Shown here piece by piece: positions 2,543 to 38,355 of a DNA stretch of 64,000 nt. Position numbers and translations under genes: made by a program. Origin of the DNA: Arbacia lixula (lineage: Eukaryota > Echinodermata > Echinoidea > Arbacioida > Arbaciidae). The notes beneath the pieces were generated by a model that was given only the letters and a program-made list of their open reading frames with translations, was not told where the DNA came from and did not search any database. Numbering within the stretch: position 1 is the first letter of the stretch; each line of letters opens with the position of its first letter. Location of the stretch: positions 12,878,559 to 12,942,558 of the forward strand of contig OZ022583.1 in NCBI GenBank assembly GCA_963669155.1. Reading direction: 5' to 3'.

Positions 2543-2762
2543 CTCTCTTCTTATGGAGTCAAGTCGGAGCAGGTGACCTTTCCCCGGGTCACGGTGTCGT
2601 CCCACCGCTGGATCTGCTGCCGGCATACCAGCAAAAAGAAGAAGCGCGACAACTGCGTGACAGCCATCAACCTGACGCGCCGGACGCCACGTGCCCTCAC
2701 GTGGCCATGTTCGGCAGACTCCGCCATGATGAACCCACGCAAGCCCTGGCTGGCTCTCAAAG
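2543..2762 (+). CDS. Terminal-domain gene, first visible coding exon (single copy)
   Basis: The acceptor is a C-rich tract ending CCTCCAG at 2542 and the donor is AAAG|GTACGT at 2763. It reads LSSYGVKSEQVTFPRV.. to ..SADSAMMNPRKPWLALK, matching clathrin from L15 to K83. A basic loop (KKKKR) makes the first beta-hairpin about four residues longer than in human clathrin. The W-box pocket residue F27 is kept; R64 is replaced by W. It starts in phase 0 and ends after one base of the Ala84 codon, completed by CT at 27600. It has no partner in block B because it lies upstream of the duplicated block. Confidence 0.85.
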
Positions 2763-5700
2763 GTACGTTCTGTTGTGCTTTTTTGTGAATATTTGGGTGT
2801 GGCTTTAAGATGTTTTTCTGGCTCGGAACAATGTTTCACAACTAATGTCTTTTTATAAAAACAGTGTTTCTCACCACAAAGCATTGTTAAAAATGCTAGT
2901 TGTAGATGAAACATAATTTTCAAAACAGTGATTTGAAACGCACAAAGAGACGAATTTCAAAACAGTATTTTGTCTAAAATCAGTATTTGTAAAATTGTAT
3001 ATATATTAAATGCAATAGCGATCTGAAATAATTGATGGCACAATTGATCAGCACAGATAGTGTGCATTCTGCTTAATATTTTTTTTTAGCTGCACAATAG
3101 AGCCCCAATATACTTCGGAGAAAAGTGAAAACACACTTCCATAAAACACTGATTCTTGATACAAAAGTCTTCAAAAAAAATGCAGCCTTTGATTTCTTGA
3201 TTGTCAAATTTCTTTTTTATATCCAGACAAACTTTTCCAACTGCAATGAAACTGGACTCCAGTTGCTCTTGTTCACCTCACTGCACTTTCACTCTTTTAT
3301 TTTAACTATTTACATGTAGCTATTGATTACCTCCAAATCTAGTTCTGAAAGTTTATTTGTAGTAATGAAAAATTATGCTGGTAAGGATTGTTTTAAGTAG
3401 ATTGTGCTGTCTGTCAAGAATACTTACTGGTATATGAATGTGAGTGTACATAGGTTAGGAACCCCCAATATCACATGATTTTGCTAGTTTATAGACAATG
3501 ACAACTTTTTTGCGTCATGACTACATGTACCTATTCGATGCATGTACACCAGTATCAGTACATCAGTAGTGTGTTTTTTAGCGAATGTATGATGCAAGAC
3601 TCCAAAATCTCTCCATAGTATCACTGTCATTCCTTCTCTTTATCGTTCAATGAGTACTGTTTGAAGACCGCTCACATCACCCAGTCCACCATGCAAACCT
3701 GTTGATTGCACCATATGTTTGTTGACATTGTATTTTTTCTGCTGTCACTTTTAAGAGGCCCAAAGTACTGCATCAATCATGGTCAAGGTTGCTGGCTCTA
3801 ACAGCCACTTTGCCAACTACATTCACATTGGGGCTGTTTACACTGGCAGTAAACAGATCACAATATTAGCCAAAAGTGCACGTTGTTGAATAACTACCCC
3901 CCCCCCCCCCCCCCCCCCCAAACAGGACCCAAAAGATTTGGCAACATCTCTCTCTGGATTGCTATTTTTCTTTTAAAAAATTGAAAGATCTTCTCTCTTT
4001 TTTTGCACCCGATAAATAATTTTAAAACCATAAAGATTTGTTTCTGTGTACACGTAACTCAATACATTCCACACACATACAAATAACCCGTTAACATGTG
4101 GCACACATGCACCACTTGCAAACAAATCTCTAGGTGGCAGTCAAACTCTGCATGTTTTTTTAATTGGCCAGTGTACATGTGCAGTATATGTTGATGGTGG
4201 GTTACTTCCTTACTTCCTAAGGTTATTTTTTTTAGTGTGAATGGGCCTGTTCACTCTGATTATACTGCAGCAGTGCGTGTTCAAGTGAAATTGCCCGATG
4301 TGAACAAGGTGAAGGTCGTGTTAAATTCGTGCTGTCTGGAGCAGACAAGAGAAGTATGAAGCACGCTATCCTTAATACTACTGGGTGTACATGCCTAAAA
4401 TTTCTTTGTAAAAAGAGAAGTGTTGTTTATAAGAGCAGTGTGCAGTTTGAAGCTACACTGTATGCTAATAATACAGGTACCTGTCTTATACTTAAAGGCT
4501 TTCACACGTCGATTCAGTGGGGAGATGTCACTATTTAGCTGCTTACTTGCGAATTTAATGCAAGTATGCGGCACGCAGCGAAATGGCTAGCCACGATTCA
4601 CATCAAGTACAATTTGGCTTTGCAATCGCCAACTCAAATGCCCGGATGCTCCAGGCTATTTGTTCTAGAGTATGTTTTCTATAAATTAAAATATATATAA
4701 AACTAACAACAAAAATACAAATATTTACATGATATTTATTCTCTCATCAAATTATATTTGTATTTGTTTACACAAATATTTTTTCTCCAATATGTACATA
4801 AATTCAAATATTTAAAATAAATGTTAAACACTACAGTGAACCAGTTGACCACTTCGTGACTCTGATCAGGGCCGAAGGTTTAGCTTTGGTAAGGATCGTG
4901 CATTCTAACCAGGCGGGTAAATGCGTAAGTACCCGAGAAACAATACACATAGGTAAGCGTGCGTTTTGCACAGAACGCACGGCGTACACAATATGGCAGC
5001 GCGCTAGGGATATATCCCGCGTACGACGTGTGAAAGCCTTTAAGCCAAAGGAATACGGGTTCCTTACCCTTGACACACAGTATCATATATGATTTAGTAT
5101 TTTAAGGCAAGAGCATTAAAGACAGCCAGTCCCTTTTTCAGATCACCACAAAACCATCGAAACATTGGCACAACATATAGAGAAGTGTTAGCAAGCTCTA
5201 TATTCACAATTTGAAACTGATACGTAGTGTAAAATTCAAATAATGCACGCAAACAACGTCTGATTAATAGCCTTTACCCCAGGCTCTTAGCAGTTTGTGT
5301 TGAAATATCTGCTTTATTGATTAATCTGTTTATTAAATTATAAAACGCATTATGAAAAAAATTGTTCTATGGAAGGAATCATCTCCAAAGTTTGGTAGTT
5401 ACTCATAAAATTAGGATTTCACACACGCGTAATAACCACATAGATACTGTAACAAAGACTAATACTTTTTTCGTGGTACGAAAAAAGTCGGTTTGAAATT
5501 TAACGGCTGAAATTTTTTACATACACAGAAAGCTTCAACATGCTTTAATCTTAGAAATGGTCTTGAATCACACTTTCTTCAATTTACGATCGTAATAGAC
5601 GATTTCAAATTTAAGCTTGCAAAAGGGACCGACAAAAATTTCGCAGTACAGTATGTCAAGATCACATACACATACAACAGAGAGAAATAAAAGAAAGAAT

Positions 5701-8005
5701 GAACTATTCAATTTTGAAGCTCTGCTATTACAGGTGGTGTATCCATTGTGTATTAAATGGATACACCACCCCATACTCAACTAATGAATTAATCTGCTAC
5801 ACCCGTATAAAGTCAGAATTTAAAGCAGATTACATGTGCAAATGATAAAGTCTTGATCTGTGATAACATGATGGAAATTGTCAGGTCTCAATTTCATTTT
5901 TTTTACGTCATAGTTAATGGAATTATGGCTGTGATATCTATGCACCCAGATGATGTTATCAATGAAAGATACAATGTAGATGATAATACATGTACACTTA
6001 TACAGGTGTCTGATGTTTTGCATTATTTGTACGTCAACACACAATACGCTTCATGCTCCTGGGTGACTGCACAGTGAGCATCATTATTTTGATGTTATTA
6101 TACAATAGATATTTTTAGCAGGTGATGAGTAATTATATCTACGGTACTACTAAATGGAAACTGAGCATACCCTTTCCGTCATTCTTTGTTTATCCGGTAT
6201 TGGATCACTAGTCTATATGATCATTAGTTCACTGTATATTTGTTTATTCATAGGATACTGGTGTTAATTATTTTTCATCTACCAGTACAACTGTATCTAT
6301 ACACTGAGCATGTATCTGCCGAAGTATTACACAACACGTACTAATCAGCCTTTCCATCATTCTTTGTTTACTGAATCACTAGTCTATATGATCATTAGTT
6401 CACTGTACTTTATATTTGTTTATTTATAGGATACTGGTATTCGTTATTTTTCATCTACCAGCACAACTGTATCTATACACTGAGCATGTATCTGCCCAAG
6501 TATTACACAACACGTACTAATCAGTCTGTACTTGAGTACAACTTGACCCTTTCACTGTACACGGACACGTATGTTGTTATGCAACCCATTTAAAATATAT
6601 TTTCATCTGCATGTACATGTACCAATACATCAACTGAGCATACAGGCTGTACATGTACACCTGTATTACACAACCAACAAAGGGGTACCGTCTGTTCTTT
6701 ACAGGATTAATGGCCTATGAGTAGAGCTTAATCCTTTTACTGTACACGTATGCTGTGATGCAATTCACGGTTTTAGCTGCTGTTGAGTATTTTTTCATCT
6801 ACCAGTAGATTAAGGAAGCTTGCAGTACACACTCCTTTATACAACGTACAATCTGTTCGGTAGCGGATTAATAGCCTACGAATACAACTTAAACCTTTCC
6901 CTGAATGTTGTGATGCAATACATTCCATGTTTTAAGCTGGTGCTAATGTTTTATCATCTACAGTACCAGTAGATACAGTAAACTGAGCACACCGTTGATG
7001 CAAGTATTACATGACCAGTACAAATTATCTGTACTGGATTACTAACCAGGATGTTCAACTTCCATTCACTGATGCACATCTCAATCTTTTAAAAAAAATA
7101 TCTTTAACTAGTGTTAAGTATTTTGTACGTACATGTTACATCAACTGAGCATGCAAGCCACACAAATACATACTACATTATCTGTCAGGTACTGAATTAC
7201 CAGCTTACGAGTACATCTTAATCTTTTCACTGTCCGCGTACACAAATTAACTTGTGGTGCAATATATACGTCAGTCTTCAGACTGATGACGATGGGAAGG
7301 GGGGGGGGGGCATGAAATAATCATGAGTAAGGCAGGAAGGATCACAAATTAAGTACTGTGGAGAAGGCACATGGTGGCTTTAAAGGGTACCAGTAATCTC
7401 TTAAAGGTCACAACAAATGTATTTTTATTTAATTCATTCATGACAGAGCACAAAATATTATGAGAGTAAACAAGTTGCTCTGGTCGGGATATTTGTGTGA
7501 TTCATTATTTCATCATTATGACAAAGATTGAATAGAAGCACAGTTTGGGCAAACCTTTTTTTAAAAAGAAATATTAAATTAGGTAGCGTGCAATATATTT
7601 TTGTATTAATTGCCTGTTTGAAGTGGAATACCATTTAAAGTTCAGTTGGCTTCTTAAGATTTTGGTATTTAAAGTGCTTGTAAATCAGGTCAATTGCTGA
7701 AAACTGTGAGTTTGAAATGATGATGTAGAAATGATTGCAACAATTTTGGTAATTTGTTGTTTCAACCAGATCAAAATAAACTGTGAGATGAACCTGTCTG
7801 TTGTTCATGAATGAATTGTAAACATGTTTGCTTCATGCAGTACCAAACATTTACACAAAGCAGATCAAGCGTGATACAGACCTGCCAACCAGTACGATTT
7901 TGTCGTATTTAGTACGATTTTTAGAGGTAAATACGACAGTACGATTTTCCTTTAAAAAAATACGATTTTCAAAAAAAAAAAAAAAAAAAAAAAAAAAATC
8001 GTTTT

Positions 8006-8038
<33 letters not shown>

Positions 8039-11000
8039 CCATATTCAGTGGCAAAATGCCCATTCTGTTTTGTAAAGTTTCCTACCAGTATCTCACATTG
8101 GCAATTTGGGAATGTTCATTGGTTCATCTAACACACCAGTCCTGACGAAATCATGCATATTCAGTCAATGTGCTCCATAAAAAATGCTCGATGTAGGAAC
8201 TGTAAGTGTAAGAGGCCGTTTTTTTTTTTTAATACAGCTTTTGTTGGTAAAATGCAACTTTTTTGATTAAAGATTACAGTCTTTGTAACTTGTATATTTG
8301 TATACATGTGAATTACTACAAAATATAGTTCGCAATTCTTGAGATATTGTGTAGGAAAGTACACAACAGTTAAGAGTAGGATTTTTTGTCTGAAAATAGG
8401 ATTTTTATGATAAAATCATAGGATTTTTGGTCAAGCGAGGTTGGCAGCTCTGATAAATGTAATTTCTAGGAATAAAAAGTAATCGTGCATTTTTTCACTG
8501 GACAGCATTTTCCTATAATAAGGAACAGGGATAGAGAGATGACGCTGACAAATCAATCAATCCATATGTACCTGTCCTCTCATTAGTTTGTCTGATGACG
8601 AAAGTGAAAGCACAAGTCATTAGATCTGATGTCAGTGCGTGTTCCACATTCATTACGCTCTAGCGTTTGATACTGAGCAAAAAGCTATTTGGCATTTGGC
8701 ATGCGGAGAACAAATGTCTGTTATTGATCGCTTCATTAGCTGCGGTAATCCTGGGGGCATTTGTTTCATGAGATGTCCTACTGGTGCTGTGTGCATGTGT
8801 GTGTGTGTGTTTGTGTGTGCGTGTGTGTGTATGTATGTGTGTTTATATATGTGTGTGGTCTCTCATTGACTCTCTGTGTTGTAAATACATTGTCTTAAAA
8901 TATATATTTTCAGATAACTATACTAATAATGCAGAGAATAAGGTAACCTATAATTGTATTTGTATCGAAAAAACAAAAGTGTTTCGAGAGGAAAAGTAGA
9001 TATTTTGCTATTAAGTAACATGATTATTGCGATATAAATGTATTACGTAGTTAATAAGCATGTTATCATTCAAGTGGGTCTGTATTACAATACTACATTA
9101 GCATTATGGGTAAGGAAACTGGCCAGGTAGGCAGGTATGAGTACTTTAGGACTCGAGATGGTGCTATTAGTTCATATCTCCTTTAAAACTCCAGTACATG
9201 AAATGAGATTGGTACAATAGTATTAAGATTTGTGTTTTTCTCTGTACAATAGTAAACAAGGATAAAATACAAGCTTATACGATGTACTGTCACTGAGAAA
9301 ATGTACATCACATTGGTTCATTTGATTGGGTAAGTACTCTTTAATATTAATGAGTCTTTGGACTAAAGTTGATCATACAGATCAGGACAAAATGAGAACA
9401 ATTAAATTAACTGGCTGATTTCTTGATGTTTTTTTTGTGTGTGAGTTAGGATAATGCTAGGGGAATCTAGCTTAATCTATTACCTCTCTTCCACAAAAAT
9501 TTGCCAGGAGCATAATATAATTTCCCAAGTTTTGTTTTTATCCAAAGGATAGTCAGACTGTGTACTTTGTTGTGATGAAGAGATGTTTAGTTCCTATCAA
9601 TAATGATAGAGTTACAGCTCCAAGTATGAGTCAAGGTGTCTCCAAATGTAACGTGAGTAACCGTGGAACAACCCATATTATTAAAGTGTACTGTATATTT
9701 TAAAGTTAATATGAGCATCAGTTTCAGAAAAGTGCATCCACCTCTGTCTTGAGAGTCTGGAGAGGAATAGCTAGGTGGAGCCAGGCCGAGGAATGTCTTC
9801 CCCCCCCCCCCCCCCCCCACAATCCCATCCCATTATTCACTCTGGCACGAAGCGCAAGCGGCCCACGAAACAAAACGAGCGTACCGTCTCGGTCTCTCCA
9901 AACCCGAGGAGTCCAAACGGAATATCAGATGAAGCGGACCTAAAAGGCTCTCCCTGCGCTCCTGTGTACAAGGAGAATTTAAGATGGCCACTTCTCAGAA
10001 ATAAACATTAACTTGCTATACGGTATGTACGTGCACTGTACATTCCTGGCACGCACTGTACAATTTTGATATTTACCTGTACATACTGGTATGCAGATTG
10101 CACTACACACATACAGTGACAGTTTATTTAATGACTATTTTGTGGAGAGACATTCTAAGATGATATAATCTTGGTTTTGCTGGACATCAGATTGATCAAT
10201 GAATCTTATTATTACGGAGAGTAACAGCAATACAGTGGCAGTTTATTCAAAGAATTTAATGTTTTGCAGAGAGACAAATGATGGTTTAATCGTCGTTTTG
10301 TTGTCAGATTGATGAATCAGTCTTATTATGGGGAGTAATAGCAATGCAGTAGCAGTGCACAGATTCGCATGTGTGGCGTACATGTACTGTCATTTGCAGG
10401 AAACGAATAAAACTAAATTGCATGGGCTGCTTTGAAAGCTTCACATCATGAGTTGCACACACTGAACCATATTGTTCATTCAGTGTAATTCAATTCAATT
10501 CAATATATTGGTTTATTCATTAAAAAGCATTTCCATGTTTAGTGACAAAGTCAAGTTGCACATGAAATTACAAAGGAGGCTCTTTGCATTGGGAGCAGGG
10601 GGGGGGGGGGTGAGTGGGGCGGGGCAAATTGCCTGCAGCCCCCTTGTAATTGCATCACTGCAATCTGCTGCGCATCTGTAATCTCAGCGTAAAATAAAGA
10701 AAAAAAAAACAGGTATTATCTGTGCATCAACACAACACAGCTGGAATCCACTGCGTAATCCGCGAAGCAGCAGTAGTTAGTATGATAATGACGGTTCACT
10801 CTACCGCGTGCAGCGACGGCTAACCAAATTAACCGGGGAGGGGGGCTCAACGGTAGGCGCTGGAAGGATACCACAGCCACGGCGCACAGCACGGGACGGG
10901 ATGTGACAGATTGTCACATAGGAGAAGGGTTTGTGTGATGCATTAATCAGGAGGTCAGGCTCGATCTCCTACATGTTAAACATAGAAACTGCCTAAAGGG

Positions 11001-12543: not shown

Positions 12544-12589
<46 letters not shown>

Positions 12590-12722
12590 TCTGTTTTGCT
12601 TTCTCTATTATCCTGTTTTCCCCTCTCTTTGTTTCTTCCCCTTCCCCCTCTTTCCCCCTTCTTTTCCTTTTTCCCTTTCACCTTTTTGTCTCTCGTTCTC
12701 TCTCTCTCTTTCTTTCTCTCTC

Positions 12723-12775
<53 letters not shown>

Positions 12776-15649: not shown

Positions 15650-15696
<47 letters not shown>

Positions 15697-25592: not shown

Positions 25593-25638
<46 letters not shown>

Positions 25639-28600
25639 CAGACCATGATTCTTTGTACTGTTCTAGTTCGAAAAAGATGTACAGACACTAGTTCCTTATA
25701 CACCTTATCATTAATAAGCGTCCACACAAAGAATTTCATTGTATCCTGAAACAAAAGTGGTATATATTGGTGTGGAAAACATAGCGGTATACCTATACCT
25801 ATACCTATACCTATACCATATAGCTACGATGAATTTGGCTTGCGTGCACACGGTGGAAGAGCGTTTCAGCAGCATTTCTGAGCACTTGTGACGCGAGTGC
25901 TATTAGCCATTAGGTCCCTTTCATATAGTTTGCGTGTGTGTTTGTTATGCTATTCGTAGAATCTGAAACATTTCTCCCTTTGCCATCTGTCACTGGAACG
26001 CTGTTTAGAAATTGTGGCGGGGATATGTCCTGCTTCAATATGTCGTCACTTGGTCATTCATGGCAGTTGGAATGCAAAGGCTTGCAGTAGCATTCCTTCT
26101 GAATGGCTCTTCAATGACATGCCCACTAAAATGCCCCATTTACATTGAAACCTTATCCATTTCCAACAATTGCAGTAGCATTGCTTCTGAATGGCTTTGC
26201 GATGTCCACTACTACCCTGTTTACATTGAAGCCTTAACCTTTTTCATCAATCAGAGTCACATTCTTACTGAGTGGATTTCGCAATGGCATGTCCACTAAT
26301 GCCCTGTTTACATTGAAGCCTTAACCTTTTTCATCAATCAGAGTCACATTCTTACTGAGTGGATTTCGCAATGGCATGTCCACTAATGCCCTGTTTACAT
26401 TGACGCCTTAACCCTTTTCATCAATCAGAGTCACATTCTTACTGAGTGGACTTTGCAATGGCATTTCCACCAATGCCCATTTTACATGGAAGTCTTATCC
26501 GTATCTGACAATTGCAGTATCATTCCTTCTGAATAGATTTGCTATAGCATGTCCACTAATACCCTATTTACATTGAAACCTTAACCATATACAGTATCTC
26601 AATCAGACTATAAGCTTAATTGGTTTGAATTGAATTGAATATTTATTATTAATAAATCTCCATACCAAGGTAATGTCATCCCATGATGGACTCCTCAGCC
26701 ACATTCAGATTTTGTTTGCAGTCATGTCTGTTCTGGTCTAATTAATTAGTGTATCGGACCTGAAGTGGACACAACTGCAAAAAAAAAACATCAGGATGTC
26801 ACTATTACTCCATAGTGGATAATATGGGACAGCTTACACCTACAGTTGAGGCCAAAAGTTTACGTACACCCATGGAATTCAGTGAAATTTGTTTGCTTGC
26901 CAAACATCGTAAAAGTTACTCTATCTTCAGAACAATAAATACTATCAAGATGAATTTGGTATCAGATGAAAGAGTGTATTAAGCTCTTTCACATTATTGG
27001 GATGCCGTTGGGATTAATTCAAATTTCAGGTGGCATTTTCTTTGAAGAAAAAAATATTCATGCCAAATGTATGCTATTGTTTGTTATTATATTTTCAAAC
27101 AACGTTTGAGAAGTAACTAGCACAAATATGAAATGATTTTGTCAAGTTTTAATTTTTAATTTGTTGAAAATATGAAGAATTCTTTGGGAAAAATGACATC
27201 TAAATATTTTTCAGCTCCTGATGAAAAAGCAATGTGATGAAGGGGTATAAAATACCCATTTGTTGGATATCAAATTCATCATGATAGCACAAATATTTTA
27301 TAAGATACAGTAAATTTTATGATGCTTGGCAAGTGTCAATTTTTTCTCTGAATTTCCTGGGTGTAAACTTCTAGCCTCAACTGTATATACAGTGTTGAGA
27401 ATTGAATTGTGTGTTCTAGCAGTTAAAATCACAATACACAATAAGTAAAATACAGGTTGTTCATGAACACGCTTTTGCAAATATGACAAAAACATGTTAT
27501 TGCAAGTATTTTTGTACAAATACATATATGGCCTTGTCTACATCTATTAACAATTCATGTCATTTTGTCTTTCTCTCTCTATTGGTTTACCTCGCACAGC
27601 TGGCAGGCATTTCCAGATCTTCAACATAGTGGCCGAGAAGCAGCTGTATCGGTGTACCATGAAAGACGAAGTGCAATATTGGACCTGGCTGAACGATGAT
27701 GTCATCGGCATAGTGGGGTCAAAGTTCATCTATCACTGGGACCTCTCACCTTTAGGTATGCAGCAAAAATACAAATTATACAAATTATATTATTTTTCAA
27801 TATAGATGAGTTATTAAGATAAGATAACATAAGATTCTATGGACCCCTTCTGGGTTTGAGATTTTAACCTATTTACAATGATATACAATAACATGACACT
27901 AAGATACAGGACGTCACCTCTTCAGTATTTAGAACATAAGTGCACAGGATTTCTCATGATGCTACAACTATGTGTAACTTCATGACTTTGAATAGCAACA
28001 TCAATGAATCAAATTCTTTTTAGGCTAGATTTTAGTAAAAGGGCTTTTTGGGGTAATTTCAATTTACAAAGAAATTTTAGGCTTACACCCAGTAGTAAGG
28101 ATAGCGTGCTCCATCCTGTAAATGGATGAAAAATAAATCAGACATTCTTTTTAGTTCATGACTTTAAAAATGATGGTGTATTTTTCCCTCCACGTGGGCG
28201 TTAATTCATGTTTAGCTTTATATGTTGAAGTGCAGACATTGTTCAATCCATAATATATGTCCATGTATCTTCTTGGAAAGTTCCATTGTTGAATATATGT
28301 TTACAACCACTACTCATTTTACATCCAAAAAGCTTATAAATTTCTTAAGAAGATCTAGATGCATCTTATATTTAGACAGCCTTGAATTGCTGCTTTGGAT
28401 TACGAAGCATTATATTTTTGCTTTGTTTCCATTCGCACAAAGCCTAGCATGGAGTCGAGTCACGCGGTCATATGATCATAACAGGGAGTAAAACCTAAAG
28501 GAAAAAACTATTTATAATTGCTTCCTTGCTCGGCTCAAGGAAGACATATTCCTTGAAAAATATTGTACACGGAGGATTTGACTGACTCTGTGGACATGAT

Positions 28601-31600
28601 GAAATATGACACACACACACACACACACCAAGCATGACCGTGGCATGCATGCATACTACAGGAAAGCATAGAGTGGCCTTGACGTGGGAAACGATAATGG
28701 CAGCCGTTTATCGGCGATTATCTAGGGGAAGTGACTCGATCACATGATAGGCATGCATTCCACGTGATGCCATGGTCGTGCGTGCGCGTATGAGCGTGTT
28801 ATTTCATTTTGCCCTGTTTGGCAGATAAATGCCCTGGTCGTATCTGACGGAATGCCAAGATGCTATTAAGTCTGCAACTCTAATCCAGTGATTAGAGATT
28901 AGAGTTGATTAGCTGCCAGATTTGCGAGTCACGGTACTTGTGATATGTGGGATTAATTTCATATATGGAAAGTGACATACTTTTAGTGAATATGTCATTC
29001 TAGAATGATCAAATTTGTCCTCCTGTGGCATGATTTTTAGGTACAAATAGATTTTAAAGGAAGGATGTTTAGTAAAAAGAAAACCCTGAAGTACTGTGTC
29101 CTTGCTGTGATTTACTTCTCCTCCTCCTCAAACCCTTCTTCTTCTTCTTCTTCTTCTCCTTCTTCATCTTCTTCTTCTTCTTCTTCTTCTTCTTCTTCTT
29201 CTTCTTCGTCATCGTCTTCGTCTTCTTCTTCTTCTTCTTCTTCTCCTCCTCCTCCTCCTCCTTCTTCTTCTTCTTCTTCTTCTTCTTCTTCTTCTTCTTC
29301 TTCTTCTTCTTCTTCTTCTTCTTTTTCTTCTTCTTCTTCTTCTTCTTCTTCTTCTTCTTCTTCTTCTTCTTCTTCTTCTTCTTCTTCTTCTTCTTCTTCT
29401 TCTATTTCTTCTTCTTCTTCTTCTTCTCTGATGTAATGATGATGTAATACAATGATGTAATACAATATGATATATTGCAGTATTTATTTCAAAACCTCCC
29501 ATTCCACCCCTTATCCTTAATCTGAGCAGAGCAGCTAAATTCTAACTTCTGTTGATGTAATACAATATGATATACATGTACTGCCATATTAATTTCAAAA
29601 TGTCCCAATCTATCACTCATCTTTAATCTGAGCATAGCAGCTGAATTTTCAGTTGTTTTCATGTAATTCAATATGTTATACTGCTGTATTCATTTCAAAA
29701 CATCCCAATCTATCCGATGACTTTAATCTGAGCATTGCAGCTAAATTCTATGTACTTTTAATGTACTACAAATGGGTGTGGTAATCTCTCTGGAGAAACT
29801 GAAACTTACCATTACAAGTCCATATCATCTTACTAGAAACCGCTTTCATTTAATTAACCGGTCCTGTACGAGTGCTTTGATTTGATTCCACATTGATGTG
29901 AGTGTGGCAGGTATAAGTGCAGTGGAATGTATCAAGTGGCAATATTCTCACAAGTGCAATTTTTTAAATGGTTGCCCTGTACAGTAGGTTTGAAGTGTTT
30001 TTGCTGGAACTTTGCCAGCCTAGGTTCTATGGTATGGAGTGTTCACTTGCTGTTTCTTAGAAGTTACAAGTCACAAGGTAGCCTTGTTTTCAGGCTTTTG
30101 GACATTTTTAAAGGGAATATACCGTACTGGGACGGGAAAAAAGGTGATCGTTAGAAATCTTCTTGCCAATGGTCTTAAATTCATGTATTGTCCATTTTAG
30201 TAATTTGCTGTCCAGAAGTTATTTGCCCTCAAATGATCCACATTTGGAGTAATTAGTGATTAAATTACAAATCCTCAAAATGTTCGGCCCAAACATTTTG
30301 AGTAATTACTCATTACTCCAAATGTGGATCATTTGAGGGCAAATAACTTTCAGCAAGTTTCTAAAATGGACAATACATGAATTTAAGACCATTGGTAAGA
30401 AGAATGCTCATGATCACCCTTTGAAGGCTTATTTGTCTTCCCAGCTCAGTATATTCCCTTTAATCAAAATTACAATATTGAATAAACAGGTCTGCAGGAG
30501 ACTATTCATTCTCATTTCCTTTTCCTTTTTGATGCAGGGAGAAAGGAAGAGAACTTAGGAGTGACTCTCATTTCTTTTTCTTTCTTTTCTCTTTATAACT
30601 ACTTTGTGACTAGTTCACAACCCTCAATAACCACCAACCATTTTCTTCTTCCTCCATTTCATCCCATTTATTTTCGGTTTGAAACACCGAAAACTAAAGC
30701 TAAAAATAGTCTTGTGTAAGTGTAATAAAATATAGAAATTCACCTCTCCTCTTTTTCACTTTTACACTTTCCTTTCCTTTATTCACCCCATGAGTGGGTC
30801 CGAAAAAATACAACCACATGCGTGGTGTTACCGAAAGTTTTATTATTTTCTAAATAGTATTTATTAGTACACTCTCACCATAGAAACATTCAAAGAACAA
30901 TTAGTCTGGAGTTTGTTTGACAATATTTACATGTAGGTAATGTATTCTCTGCTTGCTCCTGGCCTTTCCTATCTGCAGGCTTTTCCTGTCCCATGAAGGC
31001 TTTCCCGCGGCACGGCCGGCTCAACTTCTGCCAGATAGTGGGCTACAAGGTGGACCCGTCTTTTAGATGGTTCGCCGTTCTTGGACTGTACAGAGATTAC
31101 GAGGTGAGAGACTGGGGCCACGCTTATAATGATAATAATAATAATAATACAAAGAATTTATATAGCGCACTTTCCATCTTAACTAGATGCTCAAGGCGCT
31201 TCAGAGCAAATTAAAGAGAGAGAGAAAAAAATACAGAACAGGTATGAACTTGTATGTCAAAAAGCACCATTATACAGGTATGTCTTAAGGTTGCCCTTGA
31301 AGGAGGTCACTGACGTCAGGGTTTTCAAACTCTGTGAAAGAGAATTCCACAGGGTTGGCCCTGCATGAGCAAAGGCCCGTTCTCCCCACGATCTCTTTGA
31401 AACCGGAACTTGCAAAAGACCAGATGGGGAGGAATATAAGGTTCGTGATGGTTGGTAGTTGTGAATTATAGATTTATTGTAACTGGGGGAAGTTCCATTG
31501 ACAATATGAAAGACTAAAAGAAGTATTTTAAAGGCAAGGCGTTCCCTCAGGGGCAACCAATGAAGACTTTTCAAGACAGGGGTGATGTGGCTGCGCTTGT

Positions 31601-34600
31601 CGGTTAAAGTTACAATGCATGCAGCTGCATTTTGTAACTTCTGCAGTTTCCCAATTTGAGAGTCTGGTAAGATGTATAGGAGGCCATTACAAAATCAAGC
31701 CGCGACGAAATGAGTGAATATACTAGTTTCTCTGTTGCAGAGTGAATGAGATACTTTAAATCCAATGTTGCTAATGTAACTAACGGGATCACAAATTAGC
31801 CAGCTATTCACGTCTTCATCAGCCCGAAGCAGCTCACTATTTGGTCAAGAACTCATGGAGTGTTTCTTTTGGGAAAGTTTGACCAAAGTTATCCTGCAGC
31901 AACTACCTATATATGTGGATGAAGGTGATTGAATATTTGCCAAATAATGGTCTGAAAGTTTGTTAGCTGTTTGTGTTTCTACAAACATATTCTCTCTGAA
32001 GTAGTCCACTTTGGTGCAAAATCACTTAGAATCATCTTTAATCATGCAGATATTGGTGCAAAAATGGGCCAATGGCATAGTAAACCCTGTGTGCGCCATT
32101 CAAAGTGTCTCTCAATTGCAATTGAGTGTAATTGATTGTGAAAAAAATGCATCAATGGCGGACAAAGAGTTCAAATAACTTTCGCCTCTTTCTCTCCTTT
32201 ACCAAGGATGGCGACTCCAACTCTGTTTCCGGCGTGGTCCAGATCTACTCGGCGACCGTGGATCGCAGCCAGTGCATCGACGCTCAGGCCGTGACCTTTG
32301 CCTCGTACCGACGTAGCGACAACAAGGCGTGCAACTCCGTCCTCATCCTCGTGAACAGGCAGGCTGGCCTGCAGGGCAAGGTGAGAAGCTTGAGGCCGTC
32401 CCTAGGTCCTTTGCAGCGGATGCATCTTATATCTTGCCTCGGCGTGATGTCTGTACCTCTTTTGCCTCATTCAGATTAGATAAGAATCATCTTAAAGGGA
32501 ATATACTGTACTGGGAGGACAAAAAACCTCCAAACAGGTGATTGTGAGTAATCATCTTACCAATGGTCTTAGATTATTGTACTGTCCATTTTAGAAGCTT
32601 GCTGAAAGTTATTTGCCCTCAAATGATCCACATTTGGAGAAATTAGTGATTTAGTGATAAATTCTCGAAATGTTCGGCCCGAACATGTTGAAGATTTGTG
32701 ATTTAATCATTAATTACTCCAAATGTGGATCATTTGAGGGCAAATAACTTTCAGCAAGTTTCTAAAATGGACAATACATGAGTTTAAGGCCATTGGTAAG
32801 AAGACTGCTCACGATCACCTGTTTGAAGGCTTTTTGCCTTCCCGATACAGTTCACAACAAGCCAGACAAAAGATATGATATATTATTTGTAAGGTTTTCT
32901 TCTCAATCTCTTTGTGCCTTATACTCTTTGAGGAAAATATTTGTTCACAGAGACTCTTTAGTTGAGACAAGGCCTGTTCAGATAGGGCCAAAAAACAGCA
33001 TAACTGAAGGCGTTTAGATGCAAACAATCTTTTTATCACTTCTCCCAGGCAGAAAGATGAAATATTATTTGCAAGGGGCAAGCCCTCATAACACAACAGT
33101 GGTTTAACTTTATACATGTACTACACCTGGGTCCCGTTGCATAAAACTTACCATTAATGGTAACTTTGCCATCAGTGGTAACTACCATGGTAACATCACT
33201 GGACAGCCAATCAAATTCAAGGTTTCCACAGAAGTTGCTATTGATAGCAAAGTTACCATCAATGATAAGTTTCATGCAACGGGGTCCTGGACTTACTTTA
33301 TGGGATGTCAAACAAAACAAAATGGCACATTATCGATTCAATTTAATTGATTTTTTCATTGAAATCACTGGTATATTGAGTTTGTCCATATGAATATTAC
33401 AGTGAATAATTGAACTGACCCACTCTTGTGATTCTTCGTTGAAAATCAATGCTTTTGTGACATCAGCAGATGATTTATTTTGCACCCCCAAAAGTTAGTA
33501 CACAGTCTTAGTTAAACCACCGGTGTATAAATGGACCTATATGTGTGTGTGTGTGTGTGGGGGGGGGGGGTGTCCTGAGCCCTTGTACAATGTTTTTCAC
33601 CGTTACTTTTGCTTTTTAAAGGTGATATTCATAGAAAATCCAAAAATATGAAGATATTCATCTACAGAAAGCATATAAGCAATACAATGAGCTCGGATGA
33701 CATTCAAACAATATATCACTTTCCAAAAAGCGAAATTAGGGTGAAAACAATCATCGTATTCTCGGGGACAAATTTGCCCTACTGTCATCCGAAACGGCCC
33801 TTAGGTCTGACGTAAGAAAAGGGAGGCGTTATTGTGCGTCACACAGGCCAATCCGCAGCTTCTTTTCATGCATTGTTAATGAAACTGTGATAGCAGTTGC
33901 TCGTGGATTAACAGGTGTGATACACAATGGTCATTGTAAAACATATCCCGGCTGTGACGTACACACCACGCCACTTTCCCTTAGGCGATTTCGTAGGTCA
34001 GGAAGAGAGTCAATTAAGTGAAATTTGACTTTCATCAAACACAAAACTGAACACTTTCATGGCATGTTAGCTGCATAAATTGCTTAAATAACTCATTCAA
34101 TTATAAAATAAACTATGTTTATTTGATTTTATTTCCTATAAGTATCACCTTTAATACCATTTTCACTCCATGATGCTTCTCTCTTCCTAGATTCACATTA
34201 TTGAGCTGGGTCCTCATCTGGATGGGAACTGTGCGCTGAGCAACCACACGGAGCAGGTCAACTTTGATGACGAGGAGAGATATGACTTCCCCGTCACCGT
34301 TCAGGTGGGCAATTTTCATATTTTTTCATTTCATTTCGTTTCATTTATTCAACCATTATAAAAACGAAACAACAAAAATACAAAATATTTACAAACATAA
34401 AATAATGGTATAGACCCCTTGGAAAGCAAATCTGCTTATGGGCGGGGCCCTTAACAAAACACAATACATGCATAGTGACAAACAATAAACATTTGAAGGA
34501 AATCAAATAAATGAATTAATTTGCATAATCACACACGACACTGATCTGATCACAATATCTGATTCCAATTACCGCTTTCCAAATTGAGTTCAATTCTCAA

Positions 34601-36871
34601 TACCGCATCTATGGAAATGTCCTCCCACAATGCACTGCACAGCAACGTTCTTCATGTTGTTGCAGTAATGTCCCCTTCCGGTCTCATACACTAGTACACT
34701 AGATTGGAAGTAGACATGACAGCAAGCATTATCCGATGATGATCCAATGGGGGGGTATTCCGAAAATCCACAGAGAGAAAATTTTTATCTCCCCGAAGAT
34801 ACAATGTCCTTAAAATATTCCATCTTTGGTATTTCGAAAAATATTTTAGGAAGATTTTAACCAATATTAATGAGCGCATGCCCTGTGCTCCTATCCCAGA
34901 GGCAGCCAGTAATAAGCGTCCTTTCATGTCTTTTGCATACATTAAAACCATCAAGTTGATGGTGTGATGTCATGAAAGTGAAAGGGACATTGCGCATCAA
35001 AGTCTATCAGCACCTTATTGCATTTAATGCGCCTTTGTACAAACAGTTGAATGCGCAAATTATTTTTGCATGTAATGCTATGGGCTAGGCGCGTATGTCT
35101 GGAGATAAAATTGCTTGGGAGCAATTTTTTCTTTCATCCTAACTTTCTTCCTAAGTGCGTTTCAGAATACCGATTTAGCTCATTTGCATAAAAATTTTAT
35201 CTCGGAGGCTCATTTACATAAAAATGTTATCTCTGGCTCATTTGAATAAAAATTTGATCTTTTATTGTAAGTTGGCTTTTCGGAATACCAAAAGATAAAA
35301 TCTTTCCTAAGTCCCTGAGATACAATAAAATTTTTCCTAATTTCGTTTTCGTAATACCCCCCCTGCTCACAGTATGTGCTCCATCTTTACTTCCGAGGGA
35401 GTGCTTCTTCCTAGCTGTTGTTTTTTTTCACATTTACCCTCAGCCAATCTTTTGAATATGATCCATATAAATATATGATGCGATAGTTTTTCTATCATAG
35501 TTATCATAAATGATATTTATTATTAGTAGTATCATTATTATTGTTTATTCCATGCTAATCGCTCTCCTGTAGGTGAGCTCCTCCCATGGTCTAGTCTATA
35601 TTCTAACCAAGCTGGGTCGAGTCAAGGTGTGTGACGTCGAGACGGGCACATTCCTGTGCAGTTCGCGTGCCTCGCACCTCACGGTCTTCAGCTGTATGCC
35701 TGACAGCGACGGCAAGAGGATCCTGGGTGTCAGCCGATGCGGCAGGGTAAGTCTAACCTGCCTTCATCCCATCAATGATGGCGCTATTAAAGCCATCATA
35801 TCAGAGCCGTCTATACACCAAGTTTGGCCAACTCGGTTTCAATAGGGGGCAACATGGCGCATATTCTTTTGTTTTCTGCTTGCCCAACAAAGCAACACCT
35901 TTTGAAACTGGGTTGGCCAGACTCTGTGTATAGATTGCTCTGATGTGCAATAGCCCTGAACCCTCGCAGCACCATCCAGTTTAGTCACATGCCAATTTCA
36001 ACATTGTGTATTTGCGTATGGGTCTGAGAGAGTGAACAGTTCATGTACCCATTATCCTACTCCTCCTTGCCAAGGTATCAGATCAACTTTTCTTGACACT
36101 AATGCTCATTAGAATGCAACTGATACACGACCCTTTCGTGCCAGATACTGTGTAAAGGCCAACAGAAAGTTCACTGTGCAAGTTAAGGAATTAGATAAGG
36201 CCCAACTTTTGTCGTTTTTGCTCAAAAGGGGACGAACCACGCCAACAGACAAGCTAATTGGCGATCAATGTACATCAAGATTTAAGGGACTGACAAATGA
36301 CTTTTAGTGGATGCTCCCTCACACTTTTTACGCCATCACCACAAAGTGGTTGGTGGTATTATGTTTCTAGGATTTCAGTTCGTCCTGATTTCATTTATGC
36401 ATTTATGCTAAAAAAAGCAATCAACTGAAATTCATCAGACTGGGGCTAATGATGGCATATGACAGTGCAATTAACCGATGATATGTTTAGTCTGACAGGG
36501 CAAAGATCTCTTGTCAAGTTTAAATCCTGAAATGGTGCCTGAGAAATATCTGACCAAATATCACCAAACTTGGTACAGTGACAATTTATGACAACTCTCA
36601 TAATTCTCTCCAATTTGGATCAGATGATCAAAGTTCAGAGGTCATCTATAGATCAAAATCAAATCCCAAATTCCACTGTCTGTACAATTACTCCAGATAT
36701 ATTTTTTACACTGTGATAAATGGTAATATAACAATGTGACCTCTCTTTTCCTTTCTGCAGCTTCTCTCCCTGGCCGTGAAGGAGAAGGCGATTGTAGCGC
36801 ACGCACGGACCGTCTTAAAGCGACCCGCGATCGCAGACAGACTTGAGAGGACGTTTACCGAGACTCTCTGA
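2543..36871 (+). CDS. Clathrin heavy chain terminal-domain-only protein (gene span, haplotype A model)
   Basis: Seven spliced exons (2543-2762, 27600-27755, 30979-31103, 32207-32380, 34191-34304, 35573-35746, 36761-36871) join in phase 1,1,0,0,0,0 into 357 residues plus TGA. The product aligns along human clathrin heavy chain from about residue 15 to about 364, which is the seven-bladed beta-propeller plus the first linker helix. Landmarks are SADSAMMNP, ALKAG, QIFNI, YHW, HIIELG and DVETG. The usual N-terminal ~14 residues must lie in an exon upstream of the window. The protein stops where clathrin continues into its linker and leg, so it cannot form a triskelion. A cytosolic adaptor-binding role is inferred from the fold; no function is shown. 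Exons are GC-rich against AT-rich introns. The domain assignment is firm; the paralogue name is uncertain. Confidence 0.88.
2763..4491. other. Intron 1, no gene seen
   Basis: AT-rich intron following the first visible exon. It contains a C run at ~3898-3919. A dispersed-repeat patch at ~4357-4413 is similar to 60570-60620. Confidence 0.6.
4496..5039. mobile_element. TTAA-flanked MITE, AGGCTTTCAC ends
   Basis: TTAA lies at 4492-4495 and 5040-5043. The ends AGGCTTTCACACGTCG and its exact reverse complement give a perfect 16-bp TIR. The interior is AT-rich on the left and GC-richer on the right, with no transposase frame. Confidence 0.8.
5120..5637. mobile_element. TTAA element, AGACAGCC family, copy 1
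   Basis: It is preceded by TTAA at 5116-5119 and is closely similar over ~510 bases to 21334-21853. The right TTAA is lost or mutated near 5637. No coding capacity. Confidence 0.7.
5638..6160. other. Intron 1, no gene seen
   Basis: AT-rich sequence. A short near-palindrome about 5737-5772 (GGTGTATCCATT / AATGGATACACC) was noted. No coding similarity was recognised. Confidence 0.6.
6165..7260 (+). repeat. Diverged tandem array, ~178-bp unit
   Basis: Two well-kept units start at 6171 and 6349 (CCTTTCCRTCATTC...). Later degraded units are marked by recurring ACTGAGCAT, 'tattacacaac' and 'catctaccagta' motifs up to about 7200. It is non-coding and looks like an old minisatellite inside intron 1. 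Confidence 0.7.
7261..7876. other. Intron 1, no gene seen
   Basis: AT-rich, with a G run at ~7300-7310. Confidence 0.55.
7877..8452. mobile_element. MITE with CAGACCTGCCAACC / GGTTGGCAGCTCTG ends
   Basis: 14-bp imperfect TIRs share the ends of the element at 22133-22332. The interior repeats TACGATTTT motifs and holds an A-tract/T-tract hairpin at about 7971-8027. The flanks share only ATA, so the target duplication is unclear. Confidence 0.6.
7971..8027. repeat. Long poly(A)-TCG-poly(T) inverted tract
   Basis: About 28 A bases, TCG, then about 25 T bases, followed by (TG)n. Perfect hairpin potential; likely expanded from the AATACGATTTT motifs around it. Length may be unreliable in the assembly. 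Confidence 0.8.
8788..8860 (+). repeat. (TG)n microsatellite
   Basis: Imperfect TG/TGTA repeat of about 70 bases. Confidence 0.9.
8861..10470. other. Intron 1, no firm gene; GC-richer patch at 9830-10011
   Basis: Mostly AT-rich. After a C run (~9798-9818) there is an open stretch to the TAA at 10009 reading GTKRKRPTKQNERTVSVS.., with a basic patch. No family is recognised and no splice or start context settles it; it is possibly a chance frame. Confidence 0.35.
10483..10505 (-). mobile_element. Retroelement 3' tail, (AATTG)n on the minus strand
   Basis: AATTCAATTCAATTCAATA is the complement of the GAATTGAATTG tail seen at 17430-17451, suggesting the end of a degraded non-LTR element read on the minus strand. 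Confidence 0.4.
10540..12060. other. Intron 1, no gene seen
   Basis: It has G runs at ~10599-10611 and ~10999-11008, a GC-richer segment 10740-10930, and degenerate TTAGGG-like motifs at ~11087-11115. No coding match was recognised. Confidence 0.55.
12140..12800 (+). repeat. Polypyrimidine / (CT)n low-complexity tract
   Basis: About 660 bases almost purely C and T on the + strand, with pure (CT)n at ~12551-12586 and ~12727-12772. It gives long serine/leucine/phenylalanine-rich frames that are artefacts of composition. Confidence 0.95.
13337..13355 (+). repeat. (GA)n microsatellite
   Basis: Short GA repeat; a second lies at 13435-13459. Confidence 0.9.
13435..13459 (+). repeat. (AG)n microsatellite
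   Basis: About 12 AG units, opposite in strand sense to the CT tract 700 bases upstream. Confidence 0.9.
13460..14340. other. Intron 1, no gene seen
   Basis: Mixed composition; no domain, RNA gene or transposon recognised. Confidence 0.5.
14353..14439 (+). repeat. Interstitial telomere-like TTAGGG cluster
   Basis: Several degenerate and some perfect TTAGGG units (for example TTTAGGGTTAGGGTTAGGG) occur within about 85 bases. TTAGGG is the usual metazoan telomere repeat; this short internal patch is inferred to be a repair or retroelement relic. Confidence 0.7.
14887..15209. mobile_element. Palindromic TTAA MITE, copy 1
   Basis: TTAA at 14883-14886 and 15210-15213. Ends AGGGCTCATACTGTACTGGG..CCCAGTACAGTAT..CCCT. 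The arms fold back over nearly the whole length; the centre differs from other copies. Confidence 0.88.
15655..15700 (+). repeat. (GA)n followed by G run
   Basis: About 19 GA units then GGGTGGGGGGGGGG, in a purine-rich stretch to ~15800. Confidence 0.9.
16027..16180. mobile_element. MITE with GGGCCCCGTAACATAAAGG ends, CCAGG flanks
   Basis: CCAGG flanks at 16022-16026 and 16181-16185. The TIR extends over about 28 bases (GCCCCGTAACATAAAGGTTT). The layout resembles the CCTGG-flanked family at 33131, including an internal GGCCAATCAA patch. Confidence 0.75.
16186..17239. other. Intron 1, no gene seen
   Basis: AT-rich; no supported feature. Confidence 0.5.
17240..17452 (+). mobile_element. 3' end of a non-LTR retroelement with (GAATT)n tail
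   Basis: A hairpin GGGCTAACCG..CGGTTAGCCC at 17309-17350 is followed by a T-rich region, CAAAATAAATTT and a GAATT repeat tail. Hairpin plus pentanucleotide tail is typical of CR1/L2-like 3' ends; class assignment is inference. Confidence 0.55.
17980..18960 (+). repeat. Purine-rich minisatellite, block A
   Basis: About 950 bases of G/A-rich DNA on the + strand. Units of ~145-167 bases are marked by GCTTGATGTAGAAATGGG at 18132 and 18299 and a variant at 18442. The long proline/serine frames on the minus strand come from the composition. The block B counterpart is 39250-40110 with a different unit order. Confidence 0.9.
19306..19430. mobile_element. Small palindromic MITE, GGGCTATATTCATGAAA ends
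   Basis: GGGCTATATTCATGAAAC and its near-complement GTTATATGAATATGGCCC bracket repeats of CTAGTTAACACTA. The block B allele at about 40516-40622 is ~20 bases shorter in the internal repeat. Confidence 0.65.
21334..21853. mobile_element. TTAA element, AGACAGCC family, copy 2 (block A only)
   Basis: It is flanked by TTAA at 21330-21333 and 21854-21857. Block B has the empty site with a single TTAA at 42493-42496, which proves the element limits. The ends start AGA and share TCCCTTTT a few bases in; TIRs are otherwise weak. 520 bases, non-coding. Confidence 0.88.
22133..22332. mobile_element. 200-bp MITE, CAGAGCTGCCAAG / GGTTGGCAGCCCTG ends
   Basis: The flanks share ATGTCT (22127-22132 and 22333-22338), a likely 6-bp target duplication. 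The interior repeats TACTGATTTT-like motifs. The block B allele is at 42771-42971. It shares ends with 7877-8452. Confidence 0.65.
22440..22800. promoter_or_regulatory. CpG-rich promoter-like island in intron 1 (block A)
   Basis: A GC- and CpG-rich patch in AT-rich intron. It contains a perfect NRF1-type palindrome GCGCATGCGC (22701-22710), an inverted CCAAT box ATTGG (22624-22628) and a CRE-like GACGTCAT (about 22547-22554). All three are conserved at the matching places in block B. The combination is typical of TATA-less housekeeping promoters. It may drive a shorter transcript of the host gene or an unseen non-coding RNA; direction is unknown. Confidence 0.5.
23110..23161. repeat. Short hairpin, CATGGCTCTTAA arms
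   Basis: Perfect 12-base arms (23110-23121 and 23150-23161) around a 28-base loop, also present in block B near 43795-43846. Function unknown. Confidence 0.6.
24062..24210 (+). repeat. 23-bp tandem repeat (VNTR), block A
   Basis: About six units of GAACATGGACAGACATATACTG(T). Block B (about 45335-45360) has a single unit, so the array expanded in one haplotype. Confidence 0.9.
24305..24445. mobile_element. Internally deleted TIR element (block A allele)
   Basis: It begins TCTTCATTAGCCCAATCAGG and retains GCGAGCTAG motifs. Block B (45455-45725) keeps the matching right arm with CGCCTGATCTGGCTAATGAA; block A has lost it. Confidence 0.5.
25438..25575 (+). repeat. Two-copy 69-bp tandem duplication, block A
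   Basis: GCTGGTTCAAATTGACTGG recurs at 25438 and 25507 with the next ~50 bases. Block B (46720-46790) has one unit. Confidence 0.9.
25597..25637 (+). repeat. (CA)n microsatellite
   Basis: About 20 CA units, absent at the matching point of block B (~46796). Confidence 0.95.
26070..26590 (+). repeat. 87-bp tandem array, block A
   Basis: CCC(T/A)TTTACATTGAAGCC-type units start near 26135, 26215, 26302, 26389, 26476 and 26562. The block B array at ~47225-47575 has about four units. Confidence 0.85.
27600..27755 (+). CDS. Terminal-domain gene, exon 2 (block A)
   Basis: The acceptor is CGCACAG at 27599 and the donor is TTAG|GTATGC. It encodes AGRHFQIFNI.. to ..YHWDLSPL, aligned without gaps to clathrin residues 84-132. 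In the clathrin-box groove Q89, F91 and I93 are kept, but T87 is H, K96 is E and K98 is Q. It differs from 51974-52129 by four synonymous changes only. Confidence 0.9.
29137..29427 (+). repeat. (CTT)n triplet array, block A
   Basis: About 290 bases of CTT repeats interrupted by CCT and CGT variants. The frames encode poly-serine on + and poly-glutamate on -, both artefacts. Confidence 0.98.
30112..30459. mobile_element. Palindromic TTAA MITE, copy 2 (block A)
   Basis: TTAA at 30108-30111 and 30460-30463; ends AGGGAATATACCGTACTGGG..CAGTATATTCCCT. Allele of the 3'-truncated copy at 54348-54638. Confidence 0.9.
30979..31103 (+). CDS. Terminal-domain gene, exon 3 (block A)
   Basis: The acceptor is TATCTGCAG and the donor is GAG|GTGAGA. 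It encodes GFSCPMKAFPRHGRL.. to ..LGLYRDYE, matching clathrin residues ~136-175. W164 (arrestin-box pocket) and Q152 (W-box pocket) are conserved; I154 is V. There are four synonymous differences from block B. A LINE fragment starts about 25 bases into the following intron in this block only. Confidence 0.9.
31126..31790 (-). mobile_element. 5'-truncated LINE fragment, minus strand (block A only)
   Basis: Read on the minus strand it encodes the C-terminal part of a CR1/L2-type reverse transcriptase polyprotein in broken frames. 31792-31610 has ATEKLVYSLISSRLDFVMAS. 31574-31257 has LHWLPLRERLAFKILLLVFH and GPTLWNSLSQSLKTLTSVTS. It is followed by GCGCTATATAAATTC and an (ATT)n tail at 31126-31150. 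The C-terminal motif LHWLPxRERxxFKI is typical of these LINEs. The copy is dead and absent from block B. Confidence 0.85.
32207..32380 (+). CDS. Terminal-domain gene, exon 4 (block A)
   Basis: The acceptor is TTTACCAAG and the donor is AAG|GTGAGA; 58 codons in phase 0. It encodes DGDSNSVSGVVQIYS.. to ..VNRQAGLQGK, matching clathrin V177 to about K230 including the QAGGK turn. The aligned positions of Q192 and I194 (arrestin-box site) are conserved and L183 is I. The nucleotide sequence is identical to 55764-55937. Confidence 0.9.
32496..32850. mobile_element. Palindromic TTAA MITE, copy 3 (block A only)
   Basis: Left end after TTAA at 32492-32495; the right end stops at CCCGATACAG without TTAA. 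Block B runs straight through near 56050. Confidence 0.85.
33131..33285. mobile_element. 155-bp MITE with CCTGG duplication (block A only)
   Basis: CCTGG at 33126-33130 and 33286-33290; block B has a single CCTGG at 56326-56330 in matching flanks. TIR GTCCCGTTGCATAAAACTTA, with internal inverted repeats of the ACCATTAATGGTAAC type. Confidence 0.92.
33543..33570 (+). repeat. (TG)n then G run (block A)
   Basis: Short TG repeat followed by G run; the block B allele at 56584-56616 has a longer G run. Confidence 0.9.
33620..34150. mobile_element. TTAA element, AGGTGATA ends (block A only)
   Basis: TTAA at 33616-33619 and 34151-34154; block B has one TTAA at 56662-56665. Ends AGGTGATATTCATAG and the complement of AGGTGATACTTATAG. 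531 bases, no transposase. Confidence 0.92.
34191..34304 (+). CDS. Terminal-domain gene, exon 5 (block A)
   Basis: The acceptor is CTTCCTAG and the donor is CAG|GTGGGC; 38 codons. It encodes IHIIELGPHLDGN.. to ..ERYDFPVTVQ, matching the LHIIEVG...NDFPVAMQ segment of the propeller. One synonymous difference (TAT/TAC) from 56704-56817. A retroelement 3' end lies directly downstream in both blocks. Confidence 0.9.
34319..34500 (-). mobile_element. Retroelement 3' end with (AATGA)n tail, minus strand (block A)
   Basis: Read on the minus strand it has a hairpin around GCAGATTTGC, then T-rich sequence and a tail of AATGA-type repeats ending at 34319. Also in block B. Confidence 0.55.
34749..35363. 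mobile_element. TIR element with GGGGGGGTATT ends (block A only)
   Basis: Starts GGGGGGGTATTCCGAAAA and ends GTAATACCCCCCC. It contains repeats of AATTTTATCTC/CATTTACATAAAA. Block B has ~30 other bases at this point (57253-57283), so insertion came with a small deletion. Confidence 0.7.
35573..35746 (+). CDS. Terminal-domain gene, exon 6 (block A)
   Basis: The acceptor is TCCTGTAG and the donor is AGG|GTAAGT; 58 codons. It encodes VSSSHGLVYILTKLGRV.. to ..ILGVSRCGR, aligned to clathrin ISEKHDVVFLITKYGY..DLETG..GVNRKGQ. The D-x-ETG turn is kept. Six differences from 57492-57665, all synonymous. Confidence 0.92.
36761..36871 (+). CDS. Terminal-domain gene, last coding exon with stop (block A)
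   Basis: The acceptor is CTTTCTGCAG. It encodes LLSLAVKEKAIVAHARTVLK.. to ..RLERTFTETL then TGA at 36869-36871. It matches the end of the propeller and first linker helix of clathrin (VLSVCVEEENIIPYITNVL..). No donor site precedes the stop, and no further clathrin-like exon was seen downstream. The exon is identical in block B (58890-59000), so the early stop is not a random lesion in one copy. Confidence 0.88.
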   Translation, partial: LLSLAVKEKAIVAHARTVLKRPAIADRLERTFTETL

Positions 36872-38155: not shown

Positions 38156-38355
38156 NNNNNNNNNNNNNNNNNNNNNNNNNNNNNNNNNNNNNNNNNNNNN
38201 NNNNNNNNNNNNNNNNNNNNNNNNNNNNNNNNNNNNNNNNNNNNNNNNNNNNNNNNNNNNNNNNNNNNNNNNNNNNNNNNNNNNNNNNNNNNNNNNNNNN
38301 NNNNNNNNNNNNNNNNNNNNNNNNNNNNNNNNNNNNNNNNNNNNNNNNNNNNNNN
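38156..38355. other. Assembly gap of 200 N
   Basis: A run of exactly 200 undetermined bases, a typical scaffold spacer. It cuts through a short TIR element and sits exactly between the two homologous blocks. Confidence 1.

Follow-up and report, generated by a model that had tools for sequence, protein, structure and literature searches.

An intron-bearing paralogue of the clathrin heavy-chain gene, present in the genome of the echinoid Arbacia lixula (assembly GCA_963669155.1, 607 Mb in 590 contigs), encodes the N-terminal propeller and the first linker helices of clathrin and then stops. It lies in a stretch of 64,000 nucleotides (C8:12878559-12942558, contig OZ022583.1; hereafter, the window), in which most of its exons occur in two copies that differ by silent changes only within the coding sequence. 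The view that this is a stand-alone gene for a clathrin terminal domain is well supported. With regard to the function, we favour, with moderate confidence, a non-assembling, peptide-binding propeller whose specificity would be altered relative to that of clathrin. The mitochondrial code agrees with an echinoderm source: in COX1 on contig C590, AAA stands for Asn (2 of 2), ATA for Ile (10) and AGA for Ser (4) at sites that match conserved residues of this protein. Echinoderms and flatworms use such a code, and the COX1 protein itself resembles that of an echinoderm. Feature coordinates are given as window positions and are collected in Table 1.

The exon borders carry AG acceptors and GT donors, and the seven exons can be joined in frame to give 357 residues followed by a TGA codon. 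When this product was compared with sequences of solved structures, only clathrin heavy chains were matched, with 18 distinct sequences reaching E ≤ 0.01. PDB 1c9i scored highest (E 1.9e-60), residues 2-349 of the product being aligned with residues 16-351 of clathrin, and a match of this strength and extent excludes chance; the seven-bladed N-terminal propeller thus appears to be present in the product. Identity to the mammalian chain amounts to 118 of 335 aligned residues, as compared with 280 of 336 for the ordinary clathrin (CLTC) of the same genome. All four aligned tryptophans are retained, and hydrophobic positions remain hydrophobic in 99 of 120 cases. Since structures of isolated mammalian terminal domains of similar size (357-369 residues) have been solved, a propeller fragment should be able to fold alone, and together with the full-length alignment and the kept hydrophobic pattern this argues for a folded, free propeller. 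Pfam recognised no family in the product at E ≤ 1, and hence no Clathrin_H_link domain; therefore, routine domain annotation would overlook the gene. The preliminary description of this DNA, which proposed a propeller-encoding gene that stops after the first linker helix, is borne out by the structure match and by the TGA in exon 7 of both copies. The product length given there, 357 residues, holds for the joined exons, but the protein is incomplete at its start, as discussed below.

No leg exon was detected by tblastn with ordinary clathrin (1557 residues collected from its exons, a few short ones excepted) in the window, in the 60 kb before it (55 kb of which are readable) or in the 50 kb after it. 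This search matched the propeller exons and, in addition, one stretch containing stops (E 0.84); its sensitivity at such divergence is reflected by the recovery of five of the seven exons of the gene itself, exons 4 and 7 being missed. In the whole genome, all 12 matches of the leg-repeat family PF00637 at E ≤ 0.01 (15 candidates were scored) fell in the ordinary clathrin gene. With two protein queries from the legs, of 516 and 567 residues, in which the final two of the collected leg exons were not included, 18 matches were obtained at E ≤ 10. Of these, 16 belong to the ordinary gene, one (E 3.5e-4) lies at C2:31.867 Mb, in a gene which we take to be CLHC1-like, and one, on C13, represents a chance match (E 8.9). 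The linker family PF13838 was found twice in the ordinary gene and once at the C2 locus, all three matches being outside the window gene. Four of five matches of PF01394 were located in the ordinary gene, and the fifth, on C2, was weak and contained a stop (E 0.93). For PF09268, the only strong match was located in the ordinary gene; seven others, all weak (E 0.14-9.7), lay elsewhere, the top one, on C2, being just over the family cut-off. PF01394 and PF09268 do not detect the window gene, so the failure of a Pfam model to match is weak evidence when taken alone. When the product served as a genome query, 13 of the 16 matches fell at the window locus and three in the ordinary gene, the latter corresponding to three of the six counterpart exons.

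Neither the linker (PF13838) nor the leg repeats (PF00637) occur in the window gene, as the stop in exon 7 is present in both copies, and no C-terminal trimerisation and light-chain binding region was found in the product or within 50 kb after the window. The earlier statement that no further clathrin exons appear within 5 kb after the stop is therefore upheld by tblastn to 50 kb past the window, a search that was sensitive but incomplete, and by the genome-wide leg searches. According to established clathrin biology, a product devoid of linker, legs and trimerisation region would form neither a trimer nor a lattice, and would have no role as a coat subunit.

The gene most probably arose from duplicated clathrin DNA. 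The ordinary clathrin gene is located at about C8:17.003-17.039 Mb, 4.1 Mb away on the same chromosome, and its introns 2/3, 3/4, 4/5, 5/6 and 6/7, as well as the acceptor of exon 2, have same-phase counterparts in the window gene (for intron 3/4, an insertion leaves the exact position in doubt by a few residues). Ordinary exon 7 (C8:17021658-17021855) corresponds to the last exon of the window gene, which is shortened by the stop, and an extra intron splits exon 3, which is undivided in the ordinary gene (C8:17012081-17012347). The shared places and phases of introns point to duplication of genomic DNA and not to a retrocopy. Indeed, a retrocopy or a processed pseudogene is ruled out by the seven exons at clathrin-like borders, the open frames of the six shared exons in both copies and the lack of any amino-acid change between them. 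We infer that the source was the clathrin gene region of the same chromosome, either its 5' part or the whole with a later 3' loss, and that the event was not recent. The ordinary gene and the mammalian chain differ from each other at 56 sites; of these, the product shares 12 with the former, 10 with the latter and 34 with neither, numbers that lend no support to a recent derivation from the clathrin of this lineage (12 versus 10, P = 0.83). Gene fission involving the CLHC1-like gene was considered as well; it has no intron support, as the CLHC1-like exon lacks the intron that follows ...APK in the ordinary gene.

To assess peptide binding, residues were placed by alignment to the sequence of the clathrin structure, with the site lists taken from PMC8805674 and PMC11543927. 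The ordinary clathrin of this genome keeps all the listed residues except for T235S. In the W-box of the product, F27 and Q152 are identical, V177 and V262 are kept, and the changes I154V and I170L are mild. The arrestin box reads W164, L183I, R188V, V190R, Q192, I194, I231, E232, T235P and K245N, with the reservation that the alignment near 186-190 may shift by 1-2 residues, which would place an arginine near R188. N296S and R297 are found in the Royle box; in the proposed fifth site N175, G179, F252 and F260 are kept, and R221 is replaced (R221N). The clathrin box, to whose list we added I62, reads I62L, R64W, I80L, T87H, Q89, F91, K96E and K98Q. Only Q89 and F91 are identical among the six residues listed for this box (I80, T87, Q89, F91, K96 and K98) in PMC8805674. 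The same paper gives T87A, Q89A, K96E and K98E as the set of changes used to disable the clathrin-box site in mammalian clathrin, and K96E of the product is one of these four.

All three anchor glutamines, Q89, Q152 and Q192, are kept, as compared with three of 15 other glutamines (P = 0.025), and the listed pocket hydrophobics are hydrophobic at 12 of 13 positions. Because these features are kept, the product would more probably bind other peptides than simply compete for the acidic motifs recognised by clathrin. The pattern suggests, on modest statistics, that grooves were kept and charges were changed: the hydrophobic grooves and anchor glutamines for short linear peptides would be retained, and the clathrin box would have lost the majority of its basic contacts. 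One plausible job of such a protein, and judging from its site residues the likeliest, would be that of an adaptor or regulator acting outside the coat and reading a different set of peptide motifs.

Several observations weigh against a peptide-binding propeller with altered specificity. Retention of the pocket hydrophobics is near the background of 99 of 120 quoted above. Basic residues of the boxes are kept in one of six cases, versus 13 of 25 other lysines and arginines, a loss that is not significant (P = 0.13). For the four sites together, identity is found at 10 of 24 listed positions versus 108 of 311 elsewhere, so that the site residues are neither better nor worse conserved (P = 0.51). 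Thus, the apparent change of specificity may be a general drift of surface residues. The monomeric state and solubility of the product are likewise only inferred. Finally, exon 1, which should probably help to close the ring, was not found. The first residue of the product corresponds to clathrin residue 15, and no methionine precedes residue 62, so an upstream exon 1 must supply the start codon. Clathrin residue E11 sits on blade 7, according to PMC8805674, and exon 1 should probably provide its counterpart and contribute to closing this blade. Scans for exon 1 in 17.5 kb and 57.5 kb of readable DNA, each including the first 2.5 kb of the window, gave no acceptable exon; in the positive control, ordinary clathrin exon 1 scored 71 of 71. 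The best candidate scored 16 of a possible 71, above the top scores of five mononucleotide shuffles (3, 12, 8, 11 and 3), and was rejected for its poor donors, and another look-alike, about 12.5 kb before the window, was rejected as it has no donor. Of the 60 kb of upstream DNA, 5 kb consists of N, and exon 1 may lie in that part or farther away.

A different function was put forward in the preliminary description, namely that the protein could occupy adaptor motifs as a competitor or regulator. A competitive clathrin inhibitor of this kind, a legless domain that takes the same adaptor motifs and keeps adaptors off coats, seems to us rather unlikely. It would fit a terminal domain on its own, with the anchor glutamines kept and with F27, Q152, V177 and V262 kept in the W-box, through which competition would still be conceivable. 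However, the clathrin box bears R64W, T87H, K96E and K98Q, including a member of the engineered loss-of-function set (PMC8805674), and the arrestin box is devoid of R188 and K245 by the alignment used.

We also regard as improbable a scaffold propeller with no peptide-motif role, whose basic surface would bind nucleic acid, acidic lipid or another protein. The net charge (K+R-D-E) of the product, +15 versus -1 for the ordinary clathrin domain, and the KKKKR loop insertion would be consistent with such a role, but it does not account for the anchor glutamines being better kept than other glutamines. The loop itself, TSKKKKRDN (product residues 29-37, encoded in exon 2, 2543-2762), is longer than that of clathrin and presumably resembles a basic nuclear-localisation or lipid-binding stretch.

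Constraint on the protein is indicated by comparison of the two copies. On the two sides of a 200-N assembly gap, the regions 17476-38155 and 38728-60286 can be aligned piece by piece. The left copy runs up to the base directly before the gap and the right one begins 372 bases past it, these 372 bases matching a dispersed repeat. A hand count over eight segments of 26852-38155, leaving out the low-complexity segment 29240-30387 and secondary or repeat matches, gave 394 mismatches among 7692 columns without gaps (5.1%). Such an arrangement is typical of contigs from two haplotypes that were joined one after the other without trimming of their overlap, and scaffolding programs insert 200 N as a default spacer. 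Tandem duplication of the gene is less likely, because of the positions of the copy ends relative to the gap and because exon 2 is single, with one copy in the whole genome. In a gene annotation, the overlap would appear as a partial tandem duplicate. The claim that the stop and exon phases are the same in both haplotypes consequently covers exons 3-7 only, for which it stands: these six shared exons (including 3b) are open, have splice sites in both copies and encode an identical protein. Their 283 codons contain 15 synonymous and no nonsynonymous differences, with 196.8 synonymous versus 652.2 nonsynonymous sites (Fisher P = 1.9e-10). Whether the copies are haplotypes or a tandem pair, strong constraint acts on the protein, and this ratio means that the gene is not decaying. 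A truncated gene on its way to loss, or a functionless 5' fragment of clathrin, would agree with the identity of about one-third to clathrin and with the missing exon 1, but with none of the 15 differences changing the protein, and with open exons and splice sites in both copies, such an explanation is close to refuted. Least credible is an assembly artefact, in which a full clathrin paralogue lost its leg exons at the gap at 38156-38355: this gap lies 1.3 kb past the stop of copy A and diverged leg exons can escape detection (5/7 or 3/6 true exons were recovered), but in both copies the stop is reached before any gap, copy B is ungapped and runs for 55 kb past its stop without N and without a leg exon, and the genome leg searches led only to the ordinary gene, the CLHC1-like gene and one chance match.

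Among known systems, the terminal domain of the clathrin heavy chain (CLTC, CHC17) is the closest, by the match over residues 16-351, the places and phases of introns and the anchor glutamines. The window product differs from it in ending after the first linker helices, without ankle, legs, light-chain and trimerisation regions, in the changed clathrin-box contacts and in one extra intron. CLTCL1 (CHC22) is similar in being a CLTC paralogue with changed partners, but it is full-length. The CLHC1-like gene, like the window gene, is a partial clathrin paralogue without coat-building legs; however, it corresponds to the linker part, with similarity from about clathrin residue 369 and no propeller match by tblastn, so the regions of clathrin to which the two genes correspond are not the same. 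At C2:31866916-31867431 it contains a SPKGILRNPETLQRF-type segment, for which tblastn showed three copies nearby, two being weak matches (E 0.16 and 0.17). Predicted truncated clathrin heavy chains of maize, ZmCHC3a and three others, are named in PMC9263852, and they are comparable as truncated clathrin paralogues. No propeller-only clathrin gene occurred among the listed matches in the open-access literature, and of five stretches in IMG/VR viral contigs that matched the search pattern none encodes a relative.

We tentatively propose, as a possibility against which there is still more to say than for it, that the gene belongs to a conserved animal family, a "legless clathrin", in which a free-standing propeller would read new, less acidic short motifs. 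An age close to that of the split between this genome's clathrin and the mammalian chain would be compatible with the 12 versus 10 shared sites. The clathrin heavy chain is usually regarded as a building block of coats, in which the propeller is subordinate to the legs. If the proposal is true, the window gene and the linker-only CLHC1-like gene would together represent parts of clathrin released as separate proteins. A terminal-domain-only gene maintained by selection resembles the fragment cut out by structural biologists, and would allow study of the propeller without the coat and of the tolerance of its peptide sites to change. Should orthologues exist in other animals, they would constitute an overlooked family of trafficking genes, as the Pfam clathrin models tried miss the protein.

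Table 1. Positions of the gene's exons, the assembly gap and repeats in the window
Feature	Position	Strand	Basis or remark
Exon 2	2543..2762	+	single copy; counterpart of clathrin residues 15-83; ends in phase 1; borders, translation, alignment to clathrin
Exon 3, copy A	27600..27755	+	borders, translation
Exon 3b, copy A	30979..31103	+	intron separating exons 3 and 3b not in ordinary clathrin gene
Exon 4, copy A	32207..32380	+	borders, translation
Exon 5, copy A	34191..34304	+	borders, translation
Exon 6, copy A	35573..35746	+	borders, translation
Exon 7, copy A	36761..36871	+	encodes the final strand of the propeller and the first linker helices; ends in TGA
Assembly gap, 200 N	38156..38355	.	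between two contigs with overlapping ends
Exon 3, copy B	51974..52129	+	borders, translation
Exon 3b, copy B	55143..55267	+	borders, translation
Exon 4, copy B	55764..55937	+	borders, translation
Exon 5, copy B	56704..56817	+	borders, translation
Exon 6, copy B	57492..57665	+	borders, translation
Exon 7, copy B	58890..59000	+	same TGA stop as copy A
Dispersed repeat	14883, 30108, 32492, 38373, 44441, 54344, 63667		about 300-370 bases each

Between exons 3b and 4 of copy A, the segment 31129-31776 has no counterpart in copy B. It includes an open reading frame of 145 amino acids on the reverse strand (31257-31694), in which no Pfam family was found over the cut-off and which we take to be the tail of a retrotransposon reverse transcriptase. 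The dispersed repeat is represented in the window by at least seven copies of about 300-370 bases each, which are about 70-89% alike.
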